Shown here one piece after another: positions 52,049 to 63,716 of a stretch of 64,000 nucleotides of DNA (position 1 is its first letter; each line of letters opens with the position of its first letter). Origin of the DNA: a virus; the IMG/VR virus record IMGVR_UViG_3300032093_000099, positions 1 through 64,000 of that record. The stretch is one strand, 5' to 3'. The position numbers and the translations under genes are program-made. The notes beneath the pieces were generated by a model. The model was not told the DNA's origin, searched no databases, and saw only the letters and a program-made list of their open reading frames with translations.

Positions 52049-52420
52049 ATGTTGTCATATAACGACTTTATTGCAGAAGGAAAAAAAGCAACCGAAGTTT
52101 CGGGAAGAGTGATGACTACGAACAGCAATCCGCAAGCATCAATCAACCACTCCGATGAAACTATCGAAGGTCTTCGTCGTCGTCTGATCGATGTTTACTT
52201 TAAGAAATCTGAAGACAAAAAAGTTAGAGACGAAATGAACAAGTGCATATCCACATACGTATACGCGCTCGACAAAAAACTCAGGATCAGTTCAGACATA
52301 GTCGATAGGTTGGCAAAAGCAGCAGAAGAAACCAGCGAAGAAACTATGAAAGTTCTTACAAAAGAGACTGAGAAATTCTACGGTGATGAAAAACCTAACC
52401 ATTACGGAACAACAGCATAA
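52049..52420 (+). CDS. Capsid-targeted internal protein (CTS), unknown body
   Basis: A 123-residue protein. Its N-terminus MLSYNDFIAE|GKK is the closest in the window to the T4 tag MKTYQEFIAEA, with an I-A-E cleavage site before Gly. After removal of 10 residues the body is hydrophilic and helical ('IEGLRRRLIDVYFKKSEDKK'), with no membrane segment or Cys. The size and charge resemble T4 internal proteins, which are packed in the head and injected. It is the first gene after an AGATATATAG box. Confidence 0.6.
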   Translation: MLSYNDFIAEGKKATEVSGRVMTTNSNPQASINHSDETIEGLRRRLIDVYFKKSEDKKVRDEMNKCISTYVYALDKKLRISSDIVDRLAKAAEETSEETMKVLTKETEKFYGDEKPNHYGTTA

Positions 52421-52438
52421 AATAAAAAATCATAAGAA

Positions 52439-53245
52439 ATGAAAAAACTGTCAACACAAGCTCCACTAATTCGCGAGGCTGAAGAAAAAGCGATGTCTGA
52501 ACTTCAAAAAGATTGGAGAGAATACTTCGGAGCAAAACTTGCTAAGTTTGGTGTAAATTCGCCAGCCGACTTAGACGAAGAAAAGAAAAAAGAATTCTTC
52601 AACGATCTTAAGAGCGACTGGGAAAAAGGCAAAGGTGCTACCGAGGCTGGTAAGAAGGACATTGAAGAACAGGGAGTAAAAGAAGGCGAAGAAGTCAACG
52701 AAAAAGAGATCACAGCCGAAGAACTCGTCAAGAAGATCATCAAAGGCAACTCAAGATTCAAATGGTTAAATGATGACCTGCCTAAGAACTACACACTTGA
52801 CGACGTAAAGAACGCTCTTGATGATGCTGGTTACAGCAAAGAATACACCAAGTACATCAAAGAAGGCGAAGAAGTCAACGAAGCTGGTGAATTCAAAGTA
52901 GGCGATAAAGTTGCTCTTTTGTCCAAAGCTGATAAAAAGAAATTCGACGCGGGCGTAGTAGTCAAGATTCAATCTGATGGAAACGTAGTGGTAGATAAAA
53001 CCAAAAACTTTAGCCTCGAGATTGTGATGGATCCAGAGTTCCTCGTCAAAGAAAACGAAGAAGTCAATGAAGCAGAAGTAAAAACCGAAGCTGAGTTCAA
53101 AGAATACGCTGAGAAAGTTTTGAAGAAGGCTCACAAAGACGATTACGACGAAGCCAAAGCAAAAAAGACCATCGACGGAATTCTTAAGAAATCTGACGGT
53201 GACTTAGGCGCTGCTGTTGGAATGTTGACCAGTGGTCTTGCATAA
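52439..53245 (+). CDS. Capsid-targeted Lys/Glu-rich protein with three spaced VNE motifs
   Basis: A 268-residue, very charged helical protein. It starts MKKLSTQAPLIRE|AEE, a divergent tag with an I-R-E site. Residues about 20-63 ('LAKFGVNSPADLDEEKKKEF') are an amphipathic module. Three [KEG/KEN]-EEVNE motifs at residues 81-88, 141-148 and 204-211 separate segments of about 55-60 residues. The middle segment has an SH3-like 'FKVGDKVALLSKADKKKF' start. V-N-E also ends the tag of the gene at 62835, so the motifs may be cleavage sites that split the protein. Prohead core or internal protein is inferred. Confidence 0.6.
   Translation: MKKLSTQAPLIREAEEKAMSELQKDWREYFGAKLAKFGVNSPADLDEEKKKEFFNDLKSDWEKGKGATEAGKKDIEEQGVKEGEEVNEKEITAEELVKKIIKGNSRFKWLNDDLPKNYTLDDVKNALDDAGYSKEYTKYIKEGEEVNEAGEFKVGDKVALLSKADKKKFDAGVVVKIQSDGNVVVDKTKNFSLEIVMDPEFLVKENEEVNEAEVKTEAEFKEYAEKVLKKAHKDDYDEAKAKKTIDGILKKSDGDLGAAVGMLTSGLA
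52679..53071 (+). repeat. Three in-frame EEVNE-coding repeats
   Basis: Units at 52679-52702, 52859-52882 and 53048-53071. The first two are identical over 24 bases and exactly 180 bases apart; the third is 189 bases further with several substitutions. Each encodes an eight-residue K-E-[GN]-E-E-V-N-E block. The even spacing suggests domain-level duplication or selection for regularly placed processing sites. Confidence 0.75.
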
Positions 53246-53259
53246 AAACTTTAGTATTC

Positions 53260-54594
53260 ATGAATCTACTGAAATATCAAGACTTCCTAATTAAGGAATC
53301 GCAAAGAACATCTTTAGTCGAACTAATGAAGCTCGACGAAGAAGCAGGCTTGTATGATGCACTAAATGAAGGTGGCGCGTACGGACACTTGGCGCATCCT
53401 TTTGAAGACATCGGTCTGACTATGCAAGACGTCAAAGATATGATAACTTCTGCAGTCAGCGGTGCTTTCGGTCCTGAGAACTTTGTCCAAGAAAAGACCG
53501 ACGGGCAACAGCTGTCAATTACATGGAAAGACGGAGAAGTCAGAGCCGCAAGGAATAAAGGTCAGCTCAAGAATTTTGGCAAAGATTCACTATCAGCGGC
53601 TGGAATCGCGAGCATGTTCGCTGGAAGAGGCGATATAGAAATAGCTTTCAACGCAGCGATGAAGGATCTAGGCGCATCTATTGGCTCTCTATCTGCCGCT
53701 GACAAGGAAAAGTATTTTGGCAACGGCAAAAAGTTTGCCAGCATAGAAATCATAACACCGGTTACACAAAACACTGTTCCCTACGGACAGAACATGTTGG
53801 TGTTTCACGGAGTTGTAGAATATGACGAAAATGGAAATGTCATAGGTGAAGACAAGCAAGCAGGTCGTGACTTAGGTAAGTTGATCGCAGAAGCAAACGC
53901 AGCGGCTCAAGAAACTTTCTTTGTCCGCGGACCGCAAGACATTGCTCTCCAACCGCTTCCCAATACAAAAGCTCGTCAGTCTTACTATGAGTCTTTGCTG
54001 AGCAATATCATGAAAGAAAGCGGCACCAACTTTGCATCTTCAATCGAAGAATACGCTTTGGGAAATGCAAAAAGGATCCTCCAGGAGCTTGCGGCCAAGA
54101 GCAAAATAAATATACCGTCAGAGTATCTTGATGCGCTTGGCAAGCGTGTAGCTGGTATCGACAAGTCATTCACGGCGCCGCAGATCAAAAAATCGCTCGA
54201 GCCAGCGGCGGCAGACTGGTTCATCAACCTGGAGAAATCTCAAGAGAAAGAACTCAGAAAACGAGTGTACCAACCTCTTGAAGCAATCTTCTTAGAGCTG
54301 GGAACGGAAGTCATGAAGAACGTATCTTCTTTCTTGTCAGCAAATCCTACGCAGGCTGCTGAATCAATGAGAAAAGAAATCGACGGAGTGATCAGCAAGA
54401 TTCGCAAAGACGGCGGAGAAGCAGACGTCAAGAAAATGGAATACGAACTGGAGAGAGTCGCAGCAGCTGGCGGTTTAGACGCAATCGTCCCGACCGAAGG
54501 AATCACATTCCTATACAAAGGCAAGCTCTACAAGTTTACAGGAATCTTTGCACCTTTACACCAGATCCGTTCAATACTTGCTTACAAAAAGTAA
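53260..54594 (+). CDS. Capsid-targeted ATP/RNA-ligase-like nucleotidyltransferase
   Basis: A 444-residue protein. The N-terminus MNLLKYQDFLIKE|SQR carries an I-K-E site, and 'DALNE|GGAYGHLAHPFED' adds a second (L-N-E|G, residue 37). The core has signatures of the covalent nucleotidyltransferase (ligase) superfamily: motif I 'EKTDGQQ' (Lys79 as the expected adenylated Lys), a 'ASIEII' strand (160-165), 'MLVFHGVVEY' (about 179-188) and a C-terminal 'EGITFLYKG' (413-421) plus 'LYKFTG' (motifs IV/V). It could seal DNA or RNA or transfer AMP to another target. The substrate is unknown. Packaging would deliver it at infection. Confidence 0.65.
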   Translation: MNLLKYQDFLIKESQRTSLVELMKLDEEAGLYDALNEGGAYGHLAHPFEDIGLTMQDVKDMITSAVSGAFGPENFVQEKTDGQQLSITWKDGEVRAARNKGQLKNFGKDSLSAAGIASMFAGRGDIEIAFNAAMKDLGASIGSLSAADKEKYFGNGKKFASIEIITPVTQNTVPYGQNMLVFHGVVEYDENGNVIGEDKQAGRDLGKLIAEANAAAQETFFVRGPQDIALQPLPNTKARQSYYESLLSNIMKESGTNFASSIEEYALGNAKRILQELAAKSKINIPSEYLDALGKRVAGIDKSFTAPQIKKSLEPAAADWFINLEKSQEKELRKRVYQPLEAIFLELGTEVMKNVSSFLSANPTQAAESMRKEIDGVISKIRKDGGEADVKKMEYELERVAAAGGLDAIVPTEGITFLYKGKLYKFTGIFAPLHQIRSILAYKK

Positions 54595-54600
54595 AAAGAG

Positions 54601-54891
54601 ATGAAACACATACACACATTTGAGAACTTCTTAAACGAGTCGGAACACATGTCTGTCAACGAATTTGAGACTTCGCTGAATGAACTTAGACTTACATCTG
54701 CTGGTGTAAAAGAGTTGCTTACAGCAATTTATTACAACTGGGATAAAATCAAAGACAAGATTCGCCAAGAGTATTACTTCAAATCGTTTAAAGATGTCAT
54801 GGAATTTCTACTGACCGGAGATCAAGAAGAAATGGAAGAGTTGGAAAATGTCGTAAAAAAATTCGGAGTCGAAATACTAAAATTGAAATAA
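54601..54891 (+). CDS. Capsid-targeted small protein (CTS)
   Basis: A 96-residue protein with the canonical tag MKHIHTFENFLNE|SEH. 'MSVNE' (residues 17-21) and 'TSLNE' (24-28) lie close behind and might be further trimming sites. The mature part of about 70-80 residues is helical ('VKELLTAIYYNWDKIKDKIR') and slightly acidic at the end. No family is recognised. It starts 6 bases after the ligase-like gene and is followed 4 bases later by another tagged gene with a near-identical start. Confidence 0.6.
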   Translation: MKHIHTFENFLNESEHMSVNEFETSLNELRLTSAGVKELLTAIYYNWDKIKDKIRQEYYFKSFKDVMEFLLTGDQEEMEELENVVKKFGVEILKLK

Positions 54892-54895
54892 GTCA

Positions 54896-55204
54896 ATGAA
54901 ACACATACCATCATACGAAAACTTTTTGAACGAAGGCAACGATTCCGAAATGAAAGAATTTAAGACCAAGCTCGACAGACACGATTGGTACTACATGATG
55001 TCCGACGATAATCGTGTCTATACTCGTGGATCAGCCGAGGCTGATGAACTTGGCAAGATGATCAATAAGATCGGCAAAGAAGCGGAAGACTTGTACATAA
55101 AAGCTTACAAAAAAATGTTTCCGCACTCGAACTACACACCTAAGATTCTTAAAAACGAGAATGACAGATATGCAACATTTGCAGAAGTAAAAAACATGAG
55201 ATAA
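54896..55204 (+). CDS. Capsid-targeted small protein (CTS)
   Basis: A 102-residue protein beginning MKHIPSYENFLNE|GND. The body is charged and rich in Tyr/Met ('HDWYYMMSDDNRVYTR') with a helix 'KMINKIGKEAEDLYIKAYKK'. No catalytic motif is recognised. The tag resembles that of the preceding gene, but the bodies differ, so the tags were shared or conserved while the cargo diverged. Confidence 0.6.
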   Translation: MKHIPSYENFLNEGNDSEMKEFKTKLDRHDWYYMMSDDNRVYTRGSAEADELGKMINKIGKEAEDLYIKAYKKMFPHSNYTPKILKNENDRYATFAEVKNMR

Positions 55205-55205
55205 A

Positions 55206-55448
55206 ATGGAAAACAACCAATTCCCTACATTCGAAAACTTTAGAGAAGAAACCAAAGCCAACGAAGCGATGGTCCAGGTCGCAGGAAAAAGCAAACCGTC
55301 GGGTGCAACAGTACTTGCGACAGTCATCGTTGACTATATGATCAACAACAATTTGATCAACACAGGTGCAATCGACGTTAAAAATCGCATTTCTCGCAAA
55401 GAGCTTGTTGATACCGTTAAAGATATCATCATGGACAGTACGTTCTAA
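55206..55448 (+). CDS. Small protein with degenerate CTS
   Basis: An 80-residue protein, MENNQFPTFENFREE|TKANE|AMVQ. 'PTFENF' keeps the core F-E-x-F of the tag, but the hydrophobic residue before x-E is replaced, so the cleavage position is uncertain. The remainder ('GATVLATVIVDYMINNNLIN') is a compact helical segment followed by 'ISRKELVDTVKDIIMDSTF'. It sits between a tagged gene and the ferritin gene. Confidence 0.5.
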   Translation: MENNQFPTFENFREETKANEAMVQVAGKSKPSGATVLATVIVDYMINNNLINTGAIDVKNRISRKELVDTVKDIIMDSTF

Positions 55449-55463
55449 AAACAACACATCATA

Positions 55464-56030
55464 ATGCAAGAATTCAATTCATTTAGAAAAACAAAGTCAG
55501 GCAAGCTCAACGAAGCGATTGACTTTGGCACATCACCGGTCAAACCAAAGACAGTCGCTCCTGAAGTAGAGACTATGTTGAACGCCAGACTCGGTGACGA
55601 GTACACCGCGTACTTCTTTTACAGAAATGCTGCCAACTGGTGCAAGAACGCCAACTACAAGAAAGCCGCTGCATTCTTTAACGCAGAAGCAGACGGAGAA
55701 CTTGGTCACGCTCAAGGAATCCAAGATTACTTGACTCAGTGGAACCTCATTCCCGCGATTCCTCAAGTACCTACCGCGCTAAACTTTGGCGGATTGGTCG
55801 AGATCATCAACAAGGCATACGATCTAGAGTACAACTTGCTTCTTAAGTATTCTGAAGACCAAAAGATGTTGCTCGACAAAGATCCGGCTACATTCAATTT
55901 CATTCAAAAATACGTCGACATTCAGAACGGTGAGGTAGAAGAATACTCTGACTATCTAAACTCTCTTGAGTTGGTGAACCCCAACAACAAATTCGAGGTG
56001 CTTTACTTTGAGCAGACTTACTTTGGCTAA
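55464..56030 (+). CDS. Ferritin-like iron-storage protein with capsid-targeting N-terminus
   Basis: A 188-residue protein whose residues about 34-188 align from memory along the full bacterial non-haem ferritin (FtnA) four-helix bundle. Ferroxidase ligands are retained: Glu46 (FtnA E17), Glu79 and His82 (E50, H53), Glu122 (E94), Gln154 (Q127) and Glu157 (E130); Tyr53 matches Y24. The third iron site appears lost (E49, E126 and E129 positions are Gly, Ile, Gly). The first 17 residues, MQEFNSFRKTKSGKLNE|AID, form an extension with an L-N-E|A site. Ferritins oxidise Fe2+ with O2 or peroxide and store Fe3+. Packaging could protect DNA or help infection under oxidative stress. Confidence 0.85.
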   Translation: MQEFNSFRKTKSGKLNEAIDFGTSPVKPKTVAPEVETMLNARLGDEYTAYFFYRNAANWCKNANYKKAAAFFNAEADGELGHAQGIQDYLTQWNLIPAIPQVPTALNFGGLVEIINKAYDLEYNLLLKYSEDQKMLLDKDPATFNFIQKYVDIQNGEVEEYSDYLNSLELVNPNNKFEVLYFEQTYFG

Positions 56031-56039
56031 ACATCATTA

Positions 56040-57473
56040 ATGAGTGATCTTAAACTATACGAAGAATTTGTGCAGTCTCTCTTAGAAGAGGAAAAGATCC
56101 TTGTAAGAAATAAAAAGTCGGGTGCTGTCTACGACATCAATCAAAAAAGTTTCAATCCTAGTAAACACGAAGTGCCAAAACCTAAAGAGATTGATAAAGC
56201 TGAGAAAGAAGTAGAAAAAAAGGCAGAGAAAAAAGGATCATCGCACAATCTTAGTAAATCTTCGATAGATAACGCCAGAAATCAATCTAACAAAATCGAT
56301 GGTCTCTTAAAAGATGCTGATGATGACACAAAAGAAAGAGGGAGAATTGTTAAAGAGCAGTTTAATAAGTTACTTAATGCTAAGTCTGAAGAAGAAGAGG
56401 TAGAAGCAATACAAGTTTTGATCGACAATAATCTAATACAAGGTCACTCAGGCGGAACTAAAATTTATATGTCGCCTAACACTCTTTTGCCAAGAAAGTT
56501 CTTTGCAGGAGAACAAGGAAACTCTTTGACAAAAAGAATGAATGCAGTAATTGCCAAACATAATCTTCCTATAGAAATTCGGCAAAGCAGTGCAGATAGA
56601 ACTCTGGCAGACACAAGTGGAAAACACAATGAGGCTGGTGTAGTTGCATATCTGTATGATAGTCCTGAAAACAAAAAGGCATATGAGGAACTACAAAAGA
56701 AATTCACAGATCTTGGCGGAGGTGACGAAAAAAGGTATGATGAGATCAACCGAGAAGTTGCTGAGATGATTAAGAATTCTTTACCGCCTGGATCAAAGAT
56801 AACAGGTGCCGAACAATTAGGAGGAAATGATGAAGCATCTATGGCGCGAAAAGCTGCTCTTGGTCTTAAGCCGAAAAGTAAAGTAGATTATGTAGTCCAT
56901 TACAAGGACAAAGATGGCAAAGATCAAATGATGAAAGTCACCGCCAAAACATACAGTGACCCAAGTAAAATTACTATGGAGAACTCGGGCGCGGTTAAAG
57001 CAGGAGAAAAGTTTTTAGGCAAAGATCTTGGCGAAAAGGTAGATAAAAAATACCAAGAACTCTGGGCGAAATATAAGTGGGACGATACCATGTCCGACAA
57101 AGAAAAGCGAGATAGAAAAACCGCATTAAAAAAGGAATACCTTCAAGAATTTGAGAAGGCCATGCAAGAGTTGGCAAAAACCAAAGAAGGACAAAAACAA
57201 TTGACACAAATGTGGAGGGATGTTCACGGTTGTGATGAAGATCTTTACGCGCAGATCATCAATAAAAAAACAGGCGAGAAAAACTTACACCCACCTGGCC
57301 ATTATTGTAACCCAGGTCCCCCGTTTAAGATAAAATACGATGGAACAAAAATGGTCGTAGATGTTGGAGGAAGTGAAGGAGACATGGAGATAGTTCTAAA
57401 AACAGAAGATACCAAATCGCCCAAAGTTTTAATAAACCACGTAAAAAGAAAAAAGAAAAAAGACGATAAATGA
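56040..57473 (+). CDS. CTS-like protein with possible PD-(D/E)XK nuclease core; A/T-rich
   Basis: A 477-residue protein. The start MSDLKLYEEFVQSLLEE|EKI is a divergent tag. 'ILVRNKKSGAVYDI' and a long Lys/Glu linker follow. Residues 198-303 hold Glu198 ('KHNEAGVVAYL'), Asp283 ('KVDYVVHY') and Lys303 ('KVTAKTY') in the order and spacing of a PD-(D/E)XK nuclease; this is a pattern guess. 'HGCDEDLYAQIINKKTGEKN' and 'HPPGHYCNPGPPFKIKYDG' lie near the C-terminus. Hand counts on four 60-base lines gave about 32-38% G+C, against 45-50% in three lines of neighbouring genes, suggesting recent acquisition. Confidence 0.55.
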   Translation: MSDLKLYEEFVQSLLEEEKILVRNKKSGAVYDINQKSFNPSKHEVPKPKEIDKAEKEVEKKAEKKGSSHNLSKSSIDNARNQSNKIDGLLKDADDDTKERGRIVKEQFNKLLNAKSEEEEVEAIQVLIDNNLIQGHSGGTKIYMSPNTLLPRKFFAGEQGNSLTKRMNAVIAKHNLPIEIRQSSADRTLADTSGKHNEAGVVAYLYDSPENKKAYEELQKKFTDLGGGDEKRYDEINREVAEMIKNSLPPGSKITGAEQLGGNDEASMARKAALGLKPKSKVDYVVHYKDKDGKDQMMKVTAKTYSDPSKITMENSGAVKAGEKFLGKDLGEKVDKKYQELWAKYKWDDTMSDKEKRDRKTALKKEYLQEFEKAMQELAKTKEGQKQLTQMWRDVHGCDEDLYAQIINKKTGEKNLHPPGHYCNPGPPFKIKYDGTKMVVDVGGSEGDMEIVLKTEDTKSPKVLINHVKRKKKKDDK

Positions 57474-58012
57474 AACACATAAGAACATTCGACGGGTTTC
57501 TCTATGAAGGATTCATGAGTTCGCTGGATCTCATCGCGCAAGACGCAAAAGATCTCGCAGACTTTAAGAAAAAAGCAAAGAGAGACTTTCCGCAGATTGC
57601 AAAGCTCGAAGGCGCCGATGAGTGGCTTGAAGAAATTTATAGCCAAGCAATCAAAGAAAGCGTAAATGAAGCTATTGACCTCAATGATCCAGTGCTTGTT
57701 GCTTTAAGAGCGTCTAAAGAAGACAGGACAAAGAAAGCCGCTGCTCAAAAAGAACGCATGAAAAAGCGCGTCTATGGAAAACAAAGAGAAAAACTTGAAG
57801 TTGATCTTTGGACAATTTCTATAGATCTGAAAGATGCTTACGCAGAAAGAAGAGACATCTACAATAATATGGAATCGGAAGCTGGCGAAAAAGGAGATGA
57901 TTGGAATGACGCTGATGCTAACCGCTACGGCAAACTTTTAAATGATGTGGATTCAAAAATTGAAACTTTAATCAAAAAGAGACAAGAAATCGAAACAAAG
58001 CTTGCATACTAA
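57470..58012 (+). CDS. Capsid-targeted coiled-coil protein (CTS)
   Basis: A 180-residue protein starting MKHIRTFDGFLYE|GFM. A second candidate site lies at about residue 64 ('KESVNE|AIDLNDPVLVALR'), again V-N-E before Ala. The part beyond it is a highly charged helical region ('ALRASKEDRTKKAAAQKERM') and a C-terminal coiled coil with basic and acidic heptads. The body suggests an internal or core protein rather than an enzyme. It overlaps the previous gene by 4 bases (ATGA) and the next by one (TAATG). Confidence 0.6.
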   Translation: MKHIRTFDGFLYEGFMSSLDLIAQDAKDLADFKKKAKRDFPQIAKLEGADEWLEEIYSQAIKESVNEAIDLNDPVLVALRASKEDRTKKAAAQKERMKKRVYGKQREKLEVDLWTISIDLKDAYAERRDIYNNMESEAGEKGDDWNDADANRYGKLLNDVDSKIETLIKKRQEIETKLAY

Positions 58013-59046
58013 TGAAACACTTGCTTACACTGGAATCCTTTTTGGAAATGCGAGAGCTATCAAACATTGATGACTGGGCATTGGACGAAAGTCTTAACGA
58101 AGCAGCAGGAATTGATGCAATCAAGCTCAAAAGCGAAAAGTCGGGCAGAAAGATCAAACTGACTTCTGCTCTGAAATATCCTAAAGGATCACCTACTAGA
58201 AAACAGGCCGAAGAAATTGTAGATGCTTTAAGAAAGAAGCAGACCAAAATCGAAGACAAGCCCGAATCTGAAATAGAATACGTCAAAGGCGATGAAGACC
58301 TTAAGAAGCTCATGCCCAATGCAGACGTTACCAAAAAGTTGCTTAGTGAAATTCCAGCAGAGGAAAAGAAAGATGCAATCACTGCGATCGACAAAATTGC
58401 AGACGAGATAATGACCGCCAAAGAAGAGGGTCGCCCAGTACAAAATACCAATCTGTGCTCGGTAACAATTCCTGGTACTAACATGTATTGTGATGCCAAC
58501 AAAAACATTCCTCGTGAAAAAATGCCCCAGTTTCGCGGCAAGCCTGAAAAAGGTTCGGCTGCTGACAAGATGCCTCGAGACAGCAACGGTGAAGTAGAAA
58601 CATCACACTTATTCGACAAGATGCTCGACAAAGAAGGCATTAAGATATCCAAGCCTACAGAGATCGACGCTTCCAGCCTCAAGGCAACACAAGCAGAACT
58701 CGTAGGTCCTAAAGTGGTAGGCATGACAAAGGTGCTCGCTAAGAACTGTGAAAAAGACAAGTGCAGCCCTGATGAAATGAAAGACTGGAACAACATCACA
58801 GGTCCTGTCTATGTTTCAAACGACGGATACGTAGTTGACGGTCACCACCGTTGGGCCGCGATTGTTTCACATAACCTCAAGAATCCAGACAAACAGATTC
58901 CTATGAAGGTCCGTGTAATTGACGACAAGATCGACAGCATCATACCTAAAGCCAACAAGTTTGCCGAAGACATCGGAATTGCCGCTAAGACAGGTAAAGA
59001 AGGCACCAAAGGTGGAGAACCTGCTGCACAAACCAAAAAGAAATAA
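58012..59046 (+). CDS. Capsid-targeted ParB/sulfiredoxin-like protein
   Basis: A 344-residue protein. The start MKHLLTLESFLEMRE is a variant tag; a clean L-N-E|A site occurs at residue 30 ('DESLNE|AAGID'). At about 266-290 'PVYVSNDGYVVDGHHRWAAI' matches the ParB/Srx fold, where D-G-x-H-R binds nucleotide (G-x-x-R-x2-A in ParB CTPases). A Cys-containing segment 'CSVTIPGTNMYCDANKN' at about 149-165 is unassigned. ParB-like domains can be CTPases, nucleases or phosphotransferases, so the activity cannot be fixed. Confidence 0.6.
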   Translation: MKHLLTLESFLEMRELSNIDDWALDESLNEAAGIDAIKLKSEKSGRKIKLTSALKYPKGSPTRKQAEEIVDALRKKQTKIEDKPESEIEYVKGDEDLKKLMPNADVTKKLLSEIPAEEKKDAITAIDKIADEIMTAKEEGRPVQNTNLCSVTIPGTNMYCDANKNIPREKMPQFRGKPEKGSAADKMPRDSNGEVETSHLFDKMLDKEGIKISKPTEIDASSLKATQAELVGPKVVGMTKVLAKNCEKDKCSPDEMKDWNNITGPVYVSNDGYVVDGHHRWAAIVSHNLKNPDKQIPMKVRVIDDKIDSIIPKANKFAEDIGIAAKTGKEGTKGGEPAAQTKKK

Positions 59047-59052
59047 TTAGTC

Positions 59053-59415
59053 ATGTACTACATACACACATACGAGTCTTTCATAAATGAAGCGGAAGAC
59101 ATAGGTACGCAGAAAAGTGCCGCTCTCGATTTTGTCGAGAAAAAAGGAAAAGCTACATGGAAAGAAATACATTCTTTCTTGATGAAGAACAAAGGTTTTG
59201 ATCCAGCTGAATACGGCAACCGAGGCAATATGTCTTCGTACTTTTCAGGCGGAGGTTATGCTATCATAGCAGCAGCCGATGCTAAGTCGGGCAGAAGTGG
59301 CAAAACACACGGGTTGTTGATGGTTCCTACAATGAAAGATCCAAGATATCTTGACAAACAAGAAGACGGAACTTACGTCGTTAAAGTATGGGACAAGAAA
59401 AGCAAACTTGTGTAA
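59053..59415 (+). CDS. Capsid-targeted small protein (CTS)
   Basis: A 120-residue protein, MYYIHTYESFINE|AED, with a textbook I-N-E|A site. The body looks like a small winged-helix or similar α/β fold: 'ALDFVEKKGKATWKEIHSFL', then 'YFSGGGYAIIAAADAK' and a C-terminal β-hairpin 'GTYVVKVWDKKSKLV'. A DNA-binding role is possible by resemblance only. It is flanked by tagged genes with 3-6 base gaps. Confidence 0.55.
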   Translation: MYYIHTYESFINEAEDIGTQKSAALDFVEKKGKATWKEIHSFLMKNKGFDPAEYGNRGNMSSYFSGGGYAIIAAADAKSGRSGKTHGLLMVPTMKDPRYLDKQEDGTYVVKVWDKKSKLV

Positions 59416-59418
59416 AGA

Positions 59419-59949
59419 ATGAAATACGTCAAGACATACGAGAACTTTTTGTATGAAGCCAAGCAAGTAGGCACTGTTTATCACTACACTACGATATTGG
59501 CGCTTCTCAAAATTCTTGATGATGACGTATTAGGAGACAAGTCTTTAGGCAAGTACGCAAGAGTATCATTAACTCGAGACAAAAACTTTCAAAAGAGAAC
59601 CCGGATCATACCTGCCGAATGTAGAATTACGATTGATGGCAATAAGCTATCTAACCGCTATAAAGTTCAACCGTATCAATGGAATGCCTCTCATTTTAGC
59701 GGAAAGGCAGCCACTAAAGGCGGAGAAATTGAGGACCAGATGGAAGAAGAGGTACAAGGTTACATTACGGGAATCACAAATTACATCCAAAAGATTGAAC
59801 TGTTTGAACTTGAGTTGGATCCGCTCCCTTTTGATGAAGACTTTACATTAGAAGCAAGCAAGATAATCGACAAGCCGTCTGATGAAATTAACCAACAAGA
59901 CATAGTTGACTTCATCAAAAGACACGTAAAAGACACTAAAGTAATATGA
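59419..59949 (+). CDS. Capsid-targeted putative ADP-ribosyltransferase-like protein
   Basis: A 176-residue protein, MKYVKTYENFLYE|AKQ. Directly after the tag, 'GTVYHYTTILALLKILDDDV' resembles the H-Y-T/S...IL start of ADP-ribosyltransferase-like toxins (DarT- or RNA 2'-phosphotransferase-type folds). 'ARVSLTRDKNF' (47-57) follows at the usual distance of the S-x-T-R-D strand. An acidic 'DQMEEEVQGYI' (107-117) could hold the catalytic Glu. T4 packages the ADP-ribosyltransferase Alt with a CTS, so the same logic is attractive here. The family call is tentative. Confidence 0.5.
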   Translation: MKYVKTYENFLYEAKQVGTVYHYTTILALLKILDDDVLGDKSLGKYARVSLTRDKNFQKRTRIIPAECRITIDGNKLSNRYKVQPYQWNASHFSGKAATKGGEIEDQMEEEVQGYITGITNYIQKIELFELELDPLPFDEDFTLEASKIIDKPSDEINQQDIVDFIKRHVKDTKVI

Positions 59950-60485
59950 AGTACATAAAGACATTTGAAGACTATCAAGTCTCTGAAGGGTTTCGCTACC
60001 ACATGGAGAACGGATTGGATATCACCAACTCGGTTTTTCGTATAGGAAGCGATGCTTACAAACAATTGTTCGAAGAGACCAAGAAATACTGGGATGAAGG
60101 CAACATCATCCTAAAAGACAAAGCCGCTTGGATGGCTAAGAATCTGGAAGTTGGCACTAAAGCTAAATTCAAGTCAGACGATGGCAAGATGCTCGATGTA
60201 GAGTTAGATACTCCAACTAGAGGTGGAGACAAAAAGTTCCAAGTATACCACAACAGCGGCAAGAAAGACGACGATGGCAACATCATCGCCTTCAAAATCG
60301 AATGGGGAGACACAAGTGGCCTAAGCATCAAGAACGACGATCCAGCAGCTGCTGCTAGTTTTTGGGCAAGACAGCAATGTGACACCAAAGGAAGAATGGA
60401 TCCATCGAAACCTGGTTTCTGGGCCTGCTACGCGCCTTCTCTGTTCGGCAAACAACTGGGTTTGAGCTCGGATCAGCCCTGGTAA
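59946..60485 (+). CDS. Capsid-targeted protein with C-terminal PSKPGFWACYAP motif
   Basis: A 179-residue protein starting MKYIKTFEDYQVSE|GFR, with a V-S-E|G candidate site. The middle is a β-rich 'VGTKAKFKSDDGKMLDVELD' module that looks SH3-like. The C-terminus contains 'ARQQCDTKGRMDPSKPGFWA' followed by CYAPSLFGKQLGL, a conserved-looking Cys/Pro/Trp motif. No name is assigned. It overlaps the preceding gene by 4 bases and ends the first continuous run of tagged genes. Confidence 0.55.
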   Translation: MKYIKTFEDYQVSEGFRYHMENGLDITNSVFRIGSDAYKQLFEETKKYWDEGNIILKDKAAWMAKNLEVGTKAKFKSDDGKMLDVELDTPTRGGDKKFQVYHNSGKKDDDGNIIAFKIEWGDTSGLSIKNDDPAAAASFWARQQCDTKGRMDPSKPGFWACYAPSLFGKQLGLSSDQPW

Positions 60486-60500
60486 AAAAACACAATCATT

Positions 60501-60671
60501 ATGAAACTTACAAAAGAGCAATTCTTAGGAATCGTTAGACACACACTAACTTTCGTTGGCGGTATTCTCGTCATGAAAGGAATCGTCGACGACGCAGCAT
60601 ACGCAGAACTTTCTGGAGCTGTACTTACACTCGCAGGCGGACTATGGTCTGTTGTCGCTAAGAACAAATAA
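60501..60671 (+). CDS. Small two-helix membrane protein (holin-like)
   Basis: A 56-residue protein from ATG 60501. It has a short hydrophilic start, hydrophobic segment 1 ('FLGIVRHTLTFVGGILVMKG'), a turn ('IVDDAAYAE') and hydrophobic segment 2 ('LSGAVLTLAGGLWSVVA'), ending in a short basic tail. Tiny two-helix proteins of this shape are common phage holin candidates, which permeabilise the inner membrane at the end of infection. It lacks the cargo tag. A strong intrinsic terminator follows 19 bases after the stop, closing the cargo transcription unit. No endolysin is adjacent, so the lysis role is unproven. Confidence 0.6.
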   Translation: MKLTKEQFLGIVRHTLTFVGGILVMKGIVDDAAYAELSGAVLTLAGGLWSVVAKNK

Positions 60672-60690
60672 CTCTTGGCTATGAAATAAG

Positions 60691-60722
60691 AGGCCGGTTC
60701 GCAAGGACCGGCTTTTCTTTTT
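60691..60722 (+). terminator. Intrinsic terminator
   Basis: GCCGGT / ACCGGC stem (60693-60698 with 60707-60712) around an 8-base loop, followed by TTTTCTTTTT. It is the clearest rho-independent terminator in the window and lies between the holin-like and nuclease genes. Confidence 0.85.
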
Positions 60723-60747
60723 GAGATAAATAAAACAAACCCACCTT

Positions 60748-61335
60748 ATGAAAAGATTCTTACTTCCAATACTTTCGCTGGTCATTCTCGCCAGCTTCGT
60801 GCTTCCAAGCAGCCTCAGAGACAATGTTACCGTCAAGACTGACATGTACACAGTCGTCTACTCAGAAATCTTGGAACAGCCTAAGAGAGTCGAATACAAC
60901 GTACAGTGCACAGAGACTAAGTTTTCCCGTGACGGTCTTGACTTCTATACATGTGACAGCATTAAGACTTCTGACAATGCCGACTACGCAAATAACGAAT
61001 ACGACAAAGGACACATGGCACCAGCTGCCGACTTTGCTTGTGACAAAGACAAACTTAAGAGAACTTTTTCGTATCTCAACTGTGCTCTACAACAAGAGAA
61101 CTTAAACCGCGGAGTCTGGAGATTCTTAGAAGTCAGAGAAAGAAACCTCGCCAAAGTTGCTCCCACCAAAGTAGTAATCGAGGTACACTTTAGCAAATCT
61201 TCAAAGAAACTTCCTACGGGTGCCACCATACCTGACGGATTCACCAAGACGATCACATCGGGAAACGTAAAGGAAGTCTACTACTTTCCAAACATTAAAC
61301 CTATTAAGAAATCTTACAGTGACTACAAACTCTAA
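60748..61335 (+). CDS. Secreted DNA/RNA non-specific endonuclease (NUC-type)
   Basis: A 195-residue ββα-metal nuclease with an N-terminal signal peptide (about 1-21, 'FLLPILSLVILASFVLPSS'). The catalytic motif is 'YDKGHMAPAADF' (D86-K-G-H89, His89 as general base; the usual form is DRGH). It is followed by 'SYLNCALQQENLNRGVWRFL' with the metal-binding Asn111 and conserved Asn120, and Glu128 just after. These enzymes cut any DNA or RNA. Export to the periplasm would spare phage DNA in the cytoplasm and could destroy incoming or released DNA. The gene starts a new unit after the terminator. Confidence 0.85.
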   Translation: MKRFLLPILSLVILASFVLPSSLRDNVTVKTDMYTVVYSEILEQPKRVEYNVQCTETKFSRDGLDFYTCDSIKTSDNADYANNEYDKGHMAPAADFACDKDKLKRTFSYLNCALQQENLNRGVWRFLEVRERNLAKVAPTKVVIEVHFSKSSKKLPTGATIPDGFTKTITSGNVKEVYYFPNIKPIKKSYSDYKL

Positions 61336-61594
61336 CACAAGACCGTTCGACGAAAGCCGTCTAAATGATATCATAATCAGGCGTTTCTTACCCACGGTTG
61401 ATGAATCAGAGTTGAAGTGGCACTGGGACGAACAAGAAAGAATCATAGAACCCTTGAATCAAAACGATTGGATGTTCCAATTCGACAATGGACTTCCATT
61501 CCCAATTAGAGAAAAGATAAATATACCAGCCGGCGTTATACATCGAGTGATCAAAGGATCAACGGACCTGGTCATAAAAATTAAAATGATATGA
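61319..61594 (+). CDS. Small cupin-like protein
   Basis: A 91-residue protein that overlaps the nuclease gene by 17 bases. 'LKWHWDEQERIIEPLNQNDW' and 'INIPAGVIHRVIKGSTDLVI' match the two halves of a minimal cupin barrel (H-x-D/E..., then P-x-G-x-x-H). The motif-1 His/Glu and motif-2 His could bind a metal. Substrate or structural role is unknown. The next gene's ATG overlaps its stop (ATGA). Confidence 0.6.
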   Translation: MTTNSNTRPFDESRLNDIIIRRFLPTVDESELKWHWDEQERIIEPLNQNDWMFQFDNGLPFPIREKINIPAGVIHRVIKGSTDLVIKIKMI

Positions 61595-61740
61595 AAAGAA
61601 TACTTTTAGTCTTATGCGTTGCGATTCTTGCTTCGTGTGCAACTAAAAAGAAAGCCATGCAAAAGTGCGATTCTTACAGTTGCGTAAAGTGCGAACACAA
61701 AGAAAGCGCTAAATGCGATCACAAAAACAAATCAAAATAA
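61591..61740 (+). CDS. Small Cys-rich lipoprotein
   Basis: A 49-residue lipoprotein from ATG 61591. The signal 'MKRILLVLCVAILASC' ends in a lipobox (LASC, Cys16 lipidated). The mature part is about 34 residues with Cys, His and Lys clusters ('CDSYSCVKCEHKESAKCDHK'), suggesting metal binding. Size and lipidation recall outer-membrane spanins, but the Cys-rich body is unlike them. Superinfection exclusion at the envelope is another option. Junctions are ATGA upstream and TAATG downstream. Confidence 0.65.
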   Translation: MKRILLVLCVAILASCATKKKAMQKCDSYSCVKCEHKESAKCDHKNKSK

Positions 61741-62255
61741 TGGAAAACACATTCTTATCTTTTAACGCTTTCAAGAGCATCAACGAAAAAGATGAAAAAG
61801 GCAAAGAAGAAGCCAAAAAGAAAGAACCTGTAGAACTTCCAAAGGAAGACAAGGTCGACACGTCTGGCGGTCAGTACAAAGAAATGAACATCAATGGCAA
61901 GGACTACATGGCCATTCTTTCTACTTTGACTGCAATTGGCAGCAAGCAAGAAGCTATGGGAGAGAAGAAAGTTGGCATCGTATCATTGCCCGGTGACGAA
62001 AAAGTTTATGAACTTGTGCCCAAAGGCGAAGGCGGCGAAGAACAGTCCAACGAATCAGAAGCTAATGAAAGCACGGTAAACGAGGAATACGTTGAAGTAA
62101 TGAATTTACCTGAACTTGCAAATGCATTGGGTAAAGTTGCTTTTCTTTGGAAAGAATGGAAAAACGGTCCTATGACCGAGCCCAGCGACATCAAACCCGC
62201 GCAAAAAGAATTAAAAGGTTGGATCGACCGTTGGTTCAAAGACAACATTAAATAA
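61740..62255 (+). CDS. Capsid-targeted acidic protein (CTS)
   Basis: A 171-residue protein. ATG 61740 overlaps the lipoprotein stop (TAATG) and gives MENTFLSFNAFKSINE|KDE, a tag ending in I-N-E. An ATG 27 bases upstream lies inside the lipoprotein gene and would bury the tag. The body has a Lys/Glu stretch, 'VDTSGGQYKEMNINGKDYMA', an acidic 'SNESEANESTVNE' linker (another V-N-E) and a C-terminal helix-rich domain ('LPELANALGKVAFLWKEWKN'). Unknown function; processing in the linker is possible. Confidence 0.6.
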   Translation: MENTFLSFNAFKSINEKDEKGKEEAKKKEPVELPKEDKVDTSGGQYKEMNINGKDYMAILSTLTAIGSKQEAMGEKKVGIVSLPGDEKVYELVPKGEGGEEQSNESEANESTVNEEYVEVMNLPELANALGKVAFLWKEWKNGPMTEPSDIKPAQKELKGWIDRWFKDNIK

Positions 62256-62256
62256 C

Positions 62257-62835
62257 ATGAAGCACGTCAAGACTTTTGAAAGCTTCATATTCGAAGCGGC
62301 CGGAAACGATGTAGTATTCTTTCCTGGTAGATTCCAGCCTTTTCACAAAGGTCATCTTGCCGCTCTTAAGAGAACAGCCGATGTTTTTGGAAAACCCGTC
62401 GTTGCCTTGCAGATCGTATCAGCCAACGAAGATTCTCCGTTTCCTGATTCTTTGCTCGCCAAGATGGCTAAAGACGTCGTTCGTTACAATTCTTTCATCA
62501 AGGATTTTCAGATCTATCCTCAAGGCAGAAAGACAGTGATTCCTTTGATGGTCCGATTCCTCAGAGAGGAAGGATATGAGCCTTACGGTCTTGGTGCCGG
62601 TGCGGATCGCATGAAAGACTATCAGCGCCAAGTTGAATACATCACCGGTCCTAAGACCGACACTCCGGTAGATCCTTCGTTTTCTGTCAAACTCGTAGAC
62701 ACTCGAGAAGGAGACGGTCCCAGCGGTACCAAAGTTCGCCAGGCTCTTAAAGATGATGATCGCGCAGCTTTTAACGATCTGATGCCTAAAGAACTTCACA
62801 AGTACTTTGATGAACTCAAAAAATACATCAAGTAA
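62257..62835 (+). CDS. Capsid-targeted NMN-adenylyltransferase-like enzyme
   Basis: A 192-residue protein. The tag MKHVKTFESFIFE|AAG is followed at once by the nucleotidyltransferase α/β core: 'VVFFPGRFQPFHKGHLAALK' (19-38) with H-x-G-H (30-33), and 'GPSGTKVRQAL' (154-164), equivalent to the ISSTxVR motif that grips ATP. This is the layout of NadM/NMNAT-type and related cytidylyltransferases, which make NAD+ from NMN and ATP (or CDP compounds). Phage NAD-restoring enzymes counter host NADase defences, so early delivery from the capsid would make sense; that is inference. It is coupled to the next gene by TAATG. Confidence 0.75.
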   Translation: MKHVKTFESFIFEAAGNDVVFFPGRFQPFHKGHLAALKRTADVFGKPVVALQIVSANEDSPFPDSLLAKMAKDVVRYNSFIKDFQIYPQGRKTVIPLMVRFLREEGYEPYGLGAGADRMKDYQRQVEYITGPKTDTPVDPSFSVKLVDTREGDGPSGTKVRQALKDDDRAAFNDLMPKELHKYFDELKKYIK

Positions 62836-63716
62836 TGAAATACGTTAAACTATTTGAGCAGTTCGTCAACGAAAGCGGAAACGCAGTCGACAATGTTCGT
62901 CCTATCAAACAAGACGAAGTAATCGACACTGCCAAATGGGTAGAGAAAGAAATCTTCCCACAGATCGGCCTGACTGCTCTTGAAGACGATGCTGCTGTGA
63001 TAGGTTCAGCCGGCAAGAAATTGCCCGACCAAACAAGCGGAGACATCGACATTGCTGTTTCTGCCGACAAGATCGCAGGTTTTTTGGGAGTACCTGTCCA
63101 AAACACACTCTTTGCGTTGAACGACAAACTCAAATCATTGGGCTACCAAACCAAAATGATGCCAGGTTTCAACCAAGTCAGCATCGCAGCACCCGTCGGA
63201 GGCTACGCTTCTCGCGGTTACGCACAGGTAGACTTTATGATTTCTACCGACCTAAACTGGAGTCGATTCATATACCATTCGCCAGACTTTAGGACGGCCG
63301 AATCAAGGTACAAAGGAGCTTACCGCAACTTGTTGCTGATGGCAGCAATCGGCAAGTCATTCTTTGAAGTCACTAAGAAGACCGACGCTGGAGAGACCGC
63401 AGAGTTTCAAGCGTATGTGGTTCGTCTAAATCAAGGAATCGTCCAAGTAAGAAAATCTTTCGAAGGTAAGAAAGGACTTCTTAAGACGGCTGCTCTTCTC
63501 AAAGATTACGACAAGTTCGTGACGAACACACCCGAAGCAGTAGTAGAATTGCTTTTCAAAGGCAAGCACACACCTAAAGACATAGACACATACGAAAAGT
63601 TGAAAAGCTTGATCGATTCGACCGACTTCAAGTATCCTGGCGCAAGGTCTGACATCTACCAAGACTTCGAGCAAAAGCTGGAAGACGCAAAACTTCCGAT
63701 GCCAGAAAACTTGTAG
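62835..63716 (+). CDS. Capsid-targeted pol-β-type nucleotidyltransferase
   Basis: A 293-residue protein, MKYVKLFEQFVNE|SGN. The nucleotidyltransferase signature is present: 'AVIGSAGKKLPDQTSGDIDI' (G57-S58, then D70-x-D72) and the third carboxylate in 'AQVDFMI' (Asp133). Family members transfer NMPs to RNA ends, proteins or antibiotics (tRNA nucleotidyltransferases, MNT toxins/antitoxins). The C-terminal 130 residues are helical. With the NMNAT-like neighbour, two nucleotidyltransferases of different folds appear as adjacent cargo. The target is unknown. Confidence 0.7.
   Translation: MKYVKLFEQFVNESGNAVDNVRPIKQDEVIDTAKWVEKEIFPQIGLTALEDDAAVIGSAGKKLPDQTSGDIDIAVSADKIAGFLGVPVQNTLFALNDKLKSLGYQTKMMPGFNQVSIAAPVGGYASRGYAQVDFMISTDLNWSRFIYHSPDFRTAESRYKGAYRNLLLMAAIGKSFFEVTKKTDAGETAEFQAYVVRLNQGIVQVRKSFEGKKGLLKTAALLKDYDKFVTNTPEAVVELLFKGKHTPKDIDTYEKLKSLIDSTDFKYPGARSDIYQDFEQKLEDAKLPMPENL

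Follow-up and report, generated by a model that had tools for sequence, protein, structure and literature searches.

A four-module gene of an uncultivated tailed phage probably encodes a small head polyprotein

Introduction

Polyproteins that are cut by a viral protease characterize RNA viruses; in tailed phages, the trimming of single internal proteins is known. In phage T4, the protease gp21 cuts capsid-targeting sequences after L/I-X-E, thereby freeing the internal proteins of their tags, and an Asp at position 10 of the IPIII tag prevents this processing (PMC9026906). The inner-body and ejection proteins of phiKZ and SPN3US undergo multiple Glu-directed cuts by gp175/gp245 (PMC10052503), with S/A-x-E as the motif of the phiKZ protease (PMC9026906), and the polyvalent proteins of phages and plasmids, which unite 2 to 15 domains per chain, have been likened by the authors who described them to viral polyproteins (PMC5512222). 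Both cleavage at multiple sites and the tagging of internal proteins are already known from T4 and giant phages. Here, we compare these systems with an ORF from a window of 64,000 nucleotides (the whole stretch of DNA analyzed), which makes up most of a 68.1-kb IMG/VR phage contig (IMGVR_UViG_3300032093_000099), itself a fragment.

Results

The ORF encodes a candidate tag of 13 aa followed by four segments of 75, 60, 63 and 57 aa (tag, residues 1-13; segments 1 to 4, residues 14-88, 89-148, 149-211 and 212-268; Table 1). A sequence-only reading had drawn attention to three EEVNE blocks followed by K, A and A, which are indeed present at residues 84-88, 144-148 and 207-211, and to two DNA units identical over 24 bases and 180 bases apart, which we recovered as the exact repeat AAAGAAGGCGAAGAAGTCAACGAA at 52679 and 52859. 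Its remark that V-N-E also ends other tags holds as well, as seen at window position 62835 (MKYVKLFEQFVNE↓S; arrows mark actual or potential cuts). In all 2000 codon shuffles of the ORF, the longest repeat measured at most 18 bp, and only two of them contained any pentapeptide three times. A junction 21-mer, with up to three mismatches allowed, hit the three junctions and nothing else in the window, the expected number being 0. Just ahead of EEVNE, the first two linkers contain a second possible site, GVKE↓G and YIKE↓G, respectively.

Table 1. Coordinates of the ORF, its parts and a related tagged gene in the window.
Feature	Position	Strand	Remarks
Whole ORF, candidate tag plus four modules	52439..53245	+	268 aa
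N-terminal tag MKKLSTQAPLIRE	52439..52477	+	probable removal after IRE↓A; alignable with the tag of relatives
Segment 1, helical domain	52478..52702	+	confident AF2 helices; homologous to N-terminal module of long polyproteins
24-bp exact repeat, copy 1	52679..52702	+	codes for KEGEEVNE
Junction 1, EEVNE then K	52688..52702	+	K at P1' atypical; GVKE↓G just before is an alternative site
Segment 2, orphan 60-aa module	52703..52882	+	no relative found in viral_contigs (IMG/VR pattern scan) or among the fetched loci
24-bp exact repeat, copy 2	52859..52882	+	identical to copy 1
Junction 2, EEVNE then A	52868..52882	+	corresponds to the ESVVTE↓A that precedes the segment-3 module in L159 and L169
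Segment 3, 63-aa module	52883..53071	+	inside polyproteins L159, L163, L169 and L205
Junction 3, EEVNE then A	53057..53071	+	Glu before the segment-4 module in 43/43 copies
Segment 4 (module B), 57-aa three-helix module	53072..53242	+	46 IMG/VR loci
Tagged gene, first 67 aa: tag FLYE↓ plus module ending KESVNE↓A	57470..57670	+	homologue inside L028/L029; both borders match

As judged from its sequence, the N terminus of the ORF is a tag of the capsid-targeting type with a putative L/I-x-E cut, and MKKLSTQAPLIRE↓A can be aligned with the tag MKKFSEWIGSIRE↓A of the relatives L002-L004. The ORF is not alone in this respect, because about 15 genes with tags such as MKHIHTFENFLNE↓, which resemble the capsid-targeting sequences of T4, extend from 52 kb to the end of the contig. 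Within this island (window 52049-63716), 55464-56030 codes for a protein that resembles ferritin (PF00210, E 6e-20) and 62257-62835 for one that resembles a cytidylyltransferase (PF01467, E 2e-7), so that packaged enzymes may be among the island's products. The gene next to the ORF (window 53260-54594) has a second conserved possible site behind its tag, LNE↓GGAYGH, which reads VNE↓GGAYGH in L003 and LFE↓GGAYGH in L004, with V-N-E and L-N-E thus interchanging at one position. A domain with the motif AMVQxAGKxKPSGA (L002:4017-4484, L003:3692-3892, window 55206-55448) has its own tagged gene in two phages; in a third, it lies behind GNELDE↓ within a fused two-module gene.

The ORF and about 40 IMG/VR relatives, all of them metagenomic contigs of uncultivated phages, occupy a common slot with a UvsW-like helicase gene upstream and a KTDG-motif gene downstream (both names being read from sequence, not from a family search), and this arrangement is shared by all loci with sufficiently long flanks. 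The content of the slot ranges from a one-domain gene of 139 aa to a chain of 1029 aa (L025/L027), with L003 and L004 as carriers of one-domain genes. In related marine phages, up to a dozen pieces are joined in one chain in shuffled order, each module measuring about 80 aa and being set apart by the separator ES-V-V-[N/T]-E↓[A/G/S] (ESVVNE↓A, ESVVTE↓A and variants). A rough clustering, in which cluster A is mixed, distinguished about 35 module clusters in changing order. In 34 non-redundant polyproteins, we counted 160 strict sites at a median spacing of 83 aa, compared with 1.5 in residue shuffles, a figure that is biased upward because these proteins were picked for having at least three sites. 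The ORF shares all the features by which this family was defined, namely its genomic neighbours, its homology to the N-terminal module and to module B, and its segment 3 and 4 borders. Based on the common slot and the homologous modules, it can be classed as a four-module member of the family that stands between the one-domain genes and the 1029-aa chains. No match to the 1029-aa polyprotein was detected among GenBank phages, and modules G and B had no relatives in GTDB genomes and hence pointed to no host. In some genomes, a second polyprotein gene with a product of about 630 to 1008 aa lies outside the helicase slot (L079:2172-5198, L080:8837-10726, L081:613-3288, L082:7241-9397), and module L of the L016/L017 polyproteins, with 39 aa, resembles a mini zinc ribbon (SIKCSNKKGHAYKEIDNDGTVECEYCGLRNSLSESVVTE).

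Three of the four segments have relatives elsewhere. Segment 1 matches the N-terminal polyprotein module (hhalign probability 94, E 1.5e-7) and exists as a free-standing tagged gene in L002-L005, with two tandem copies in L002. Segment 3 yielded nothing when used alone in an IMG/VR pattern scan and was only found once a scan for junction DNA had widened the set; its relatives then scored phmmer E-values of 5e-14 to 3e-11 with matching borders, such that ESVVTE↓AKFRVGDKVSILSRSSKKPFDSGEV...VKESVVTE↓A in other polyproteins corresponds to EEVNE↓AGEFKVGDKVALLSKADKKKFDAGVV...VKENEEVNE↓A in the window. Segment 4 (module B; 56-71% identity) is present at 46 loci, where it mostly represents one module of a much longer protein. 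AF2 was confident for segments 1 and 4 only, with low-confidence linkers, and a search for similar folds in the PDB gave no significant match. By Pfam, neither the ORF nor eight relatives contain a peptidase or other named effector domain, and neither Pfam nor PHROGs returned a match to an annotated core family. In cultured Pseudomonas putida phages (L129, PP496440.1, 5260-11583), segment 1 recurs near the N-terminus of a 730-aa protein encoded between the portal and the head maturation protease. This protein and its neighbours show a recurring [VTQ]ETA[SA] between domains and are possibly analogous polyproteins with another motif.

The borders of the modules were located by homology, using module profiles built without the junction. 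Glu directly preceded the module in 43/43 copies of B, 13/13 of C, 12/12 of D, 9/9 of E, 8/8 of J and 12/12 of F. P3 was mostly V/I/L/T and P2 mostly N/T/S/D, and the sequences further upstream were of many different kinds. Less clear-cut starts were seen for modules G, H and I, in part owing to one-residue offsets; in a separate scan, the sequences ahead of 32 copies of module G were for the most part unrelated, and the distance to a site was nearly constant. In the ORF itself, the borders of segments 3 and 4 fall on [V/I/L]-x-E↓. The junction DNA GAATCWGTWGTTAMYGAAGC is read in frame as ESVV[NT]EA in 155 of 163 occurrences among the matches listed, which come from at least 120 stretches. The ends of BLAST alignments clustered at the sites with an excess of only about 1.7-fold, a small effect because conserved linkers blur alignment ends, and the homology-anchored tests took the place of this measure.

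Many modules are, in addition, encoded by stand-alone genes that begin with a T4-like capsid-targeting tag, which permits a comparison of the tag cut with the corresponding polyprotein junction. The two coincide exactly, at [hydrophobic]-x-E↓, in 21 of 36 non-redundant modules (one of the 21, L211, being a truncated polyprotein and not a tagged gene), whereas 30 other offsets gave 2.9 coincidences on average (range 0-9); there was no coincidence in the other 15, several of which involve gaps or doubtful tag calls. For instance, MKHLHTFESYVNE↓GAVKQFEYD of the 143-kb relative G002 pairs with EATVTE↓GAVKRFEMD of a polyprotein, and FLYE↓GFMSSLDLIAQ at window position 57470 pairs with FIDE↓SALSDIDLLAK, the far end of this module also matching, at ESVNE↓. 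Since the tag cut is a site of the prohead protease in T4, the junction is most simply explained as a prohead-protease site, too.

A gp21-type protease (PF03420) was identified in 13 of the 23 contigs searched, including G002; a search of the 68-kb window contig, which is a fragment, did not detect one. The relatives have this protease joined to a scaffold-like region, and the next protein is a capsid protein of the gp23 type (E 3e-11 to T4 gp23). In six of these capsid proteins, alignment places the last Glu before the core within HKLYE↓D, HSLNE↓G or HQLNE↓N, and this shared L-[N/Y]-E would fit a protease that accepts L-N-E. The scaffold-like region of the protease fusion (L074:3459-5459, L076:3742-5736) displays [L/V/I]-A-E every ~14-17 residues, which could let the scaffold self-destruct into short peptides.

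At the DNA level, the junctions within a gene have identical codons in 232 of 265 cases, compared with a mean of 153.8 and a maximum of 185 in shuffled versions, none of which reached the observed value (0/1000). Together with the 24-bp repeat, this likeness suggests recent duplication or recombination at the junctions. It is not evidence for cleavage, since uncut linkers would show it as well, and it does not argue against cleavage either, since the two processes are compatible. The junction DNA (e.g. GAATCAGTAGTTAAYGAAGC) probably combines a protease site with a short homology for recombination.

Discussion

Our results suggest, with a probability of roughly 0.77, that the ORF encodes a small head polyprotein that is cut in trans into four internal proteins packaged in the head. 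The N-terminal tag would carry the chain into the prohead core, where a gp21-type prohead protease would cut after the Glu of [V/I/L]-x-E, at IRE↓A behind the tag and at each EEVNE↓, and thus free four small proteins inside the head. These would be packaged alongside the DNA and, like the T4 internal proteins, probably be ejected into the host, while the gene would act as a slot whose modules are gained, lost, duplicated and reordered at the junctions in related phages. The sequence comparisons show that the chains are modular, where exactly the modules meet, that tagged genes are equivalent to such modules and that many relatives encode the protease; from these findings we infer cleavage, packaging and ejection, as well as the function of each module. 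The residues at the sites count to some extent against cleavage at EEVNE, because P3 is V instead of the L/I of the T4 consensus and P1' of junction 1 is K instead of the usual A/G/S. Further points against the polyprotein reading are segment 2, for which no relative was found, the window contig, in whose sequence no protease was detected, the less regular starts of modules G, H and I, and the 15 of 36 tag comparisons that did not agree.

The sequence-only reading had envisaged a self-partitioning protein that the prohead protease divides into three or four peptides, in the manner of T4 gp67/gp22. The proposed partition at the EEVNE blocks is supported by borders that match the modules of relatives and the tag cuts of free-standing genes. 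The count is refined to four segments and a tag, and a string of proteins of the T4 IPI-III and Alt kind is a better parallel than gp22/gp67 alone. The term self-partitioning is inexact, because the protease is encoded by a separate gene.

Several other explanations deserve consideration. The ORF protein is rich in lysine and glutamate, in which setting a pentapeptide might recur by chance, but the codon shuffles (2/2000 with any pentapeptide in triplicate, none with a 24-bp repeat) and the recurrence of the borders in relatives to all intents rule this out. The chain could also remain uncut, as a multidomain head or core protein whose EEVNE and ESVVNE stretches act as flexible linkers and short shuffling homologies instead of protease sites. 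Such a protein would be in line with junction DNA that is more alike than the protein requires (232/265 vs a mean of 153.8), with the exact 24-bp repeat and with the low-confidence linkers of the AF2 model. It would, however, leave unexplained why [V/I/L]-x-E is found so consistently at borders defined by homology and why these borders coincide with tag cuts, and we consider it unlikely.

Alternatively, the chain might be a core protein akin to gp22/gp67 that is cut at multiple sites merely to clear the prohead, with its fragments being expelled and having no later role. There is precedent for this fate in T4 gp22, gp67 and gp68, which are cut into several, mostly lost fragments (PMC9026906), and the presence of segment 1 in a Pseudomonas phage protein encoded between portal and protease indicates that this segment may be a core-binding domain. 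We regard this scenario as quite unlikely, though, given that the modules are diverse, domain-sized and also encoded as separate tagged genes, whereas the evident scaffold is instead fused to the protease. Their variety and their tagged free-standing copies make the modules look like internal-protein cargo and not like scaffold waste of the gp22 type.

For a widespread group of marine T4-like phages, we lean slightly towards a polyprotein cassette system for changeable ejected cargo, in which recombination at the junctions coding for protease sites would add and reorder modules. The data suggest that recombination could in this way change the injected repertoire without each protein having to acquire its own gene and tag. 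Moreover, the junctions offer a sequence-based criterion by which many small phage proteins of no known family, putatively packaged and likely injected, can be recognized, which opens a route to testing the effects of individual modules on host defences. In the literature searched, with partial coverage of subscription papers, we found no description of cargo modules strung together in shuffled order behind a single tag.

Among the systems described, the T4 proteins IPI, IPII, IPIII and Alt share with the present one an N-terminal tag ending in x-x-E↓, tagged neighbour genes and a gp21-type protease (here seen in relatives), but each has its own gene and tag, whereas several modules share one tag and chain here. 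T4 gp22, gp67 and gp68 similarly have several prohead-protease sites on one chain, but their fragments are mostly expelled, whereas the modules described here have the size of domains, have been shuffled among phages and occur as tagged genes of their own, too. The head proteins of phiKZ and SPN3US likewise receive multiple Glu-directed cuts, which there mostly remove propeptides. Polyvalent proteins also join many domains in one chain, but their proposed processing relies on an embedded metallopeptidase domain, whereas the modules here are small and the protease would act in trans. A tailed phage thus appears to draw a packaged mixture of proteins from a single gene, much as RNA viruses use polyproteins.
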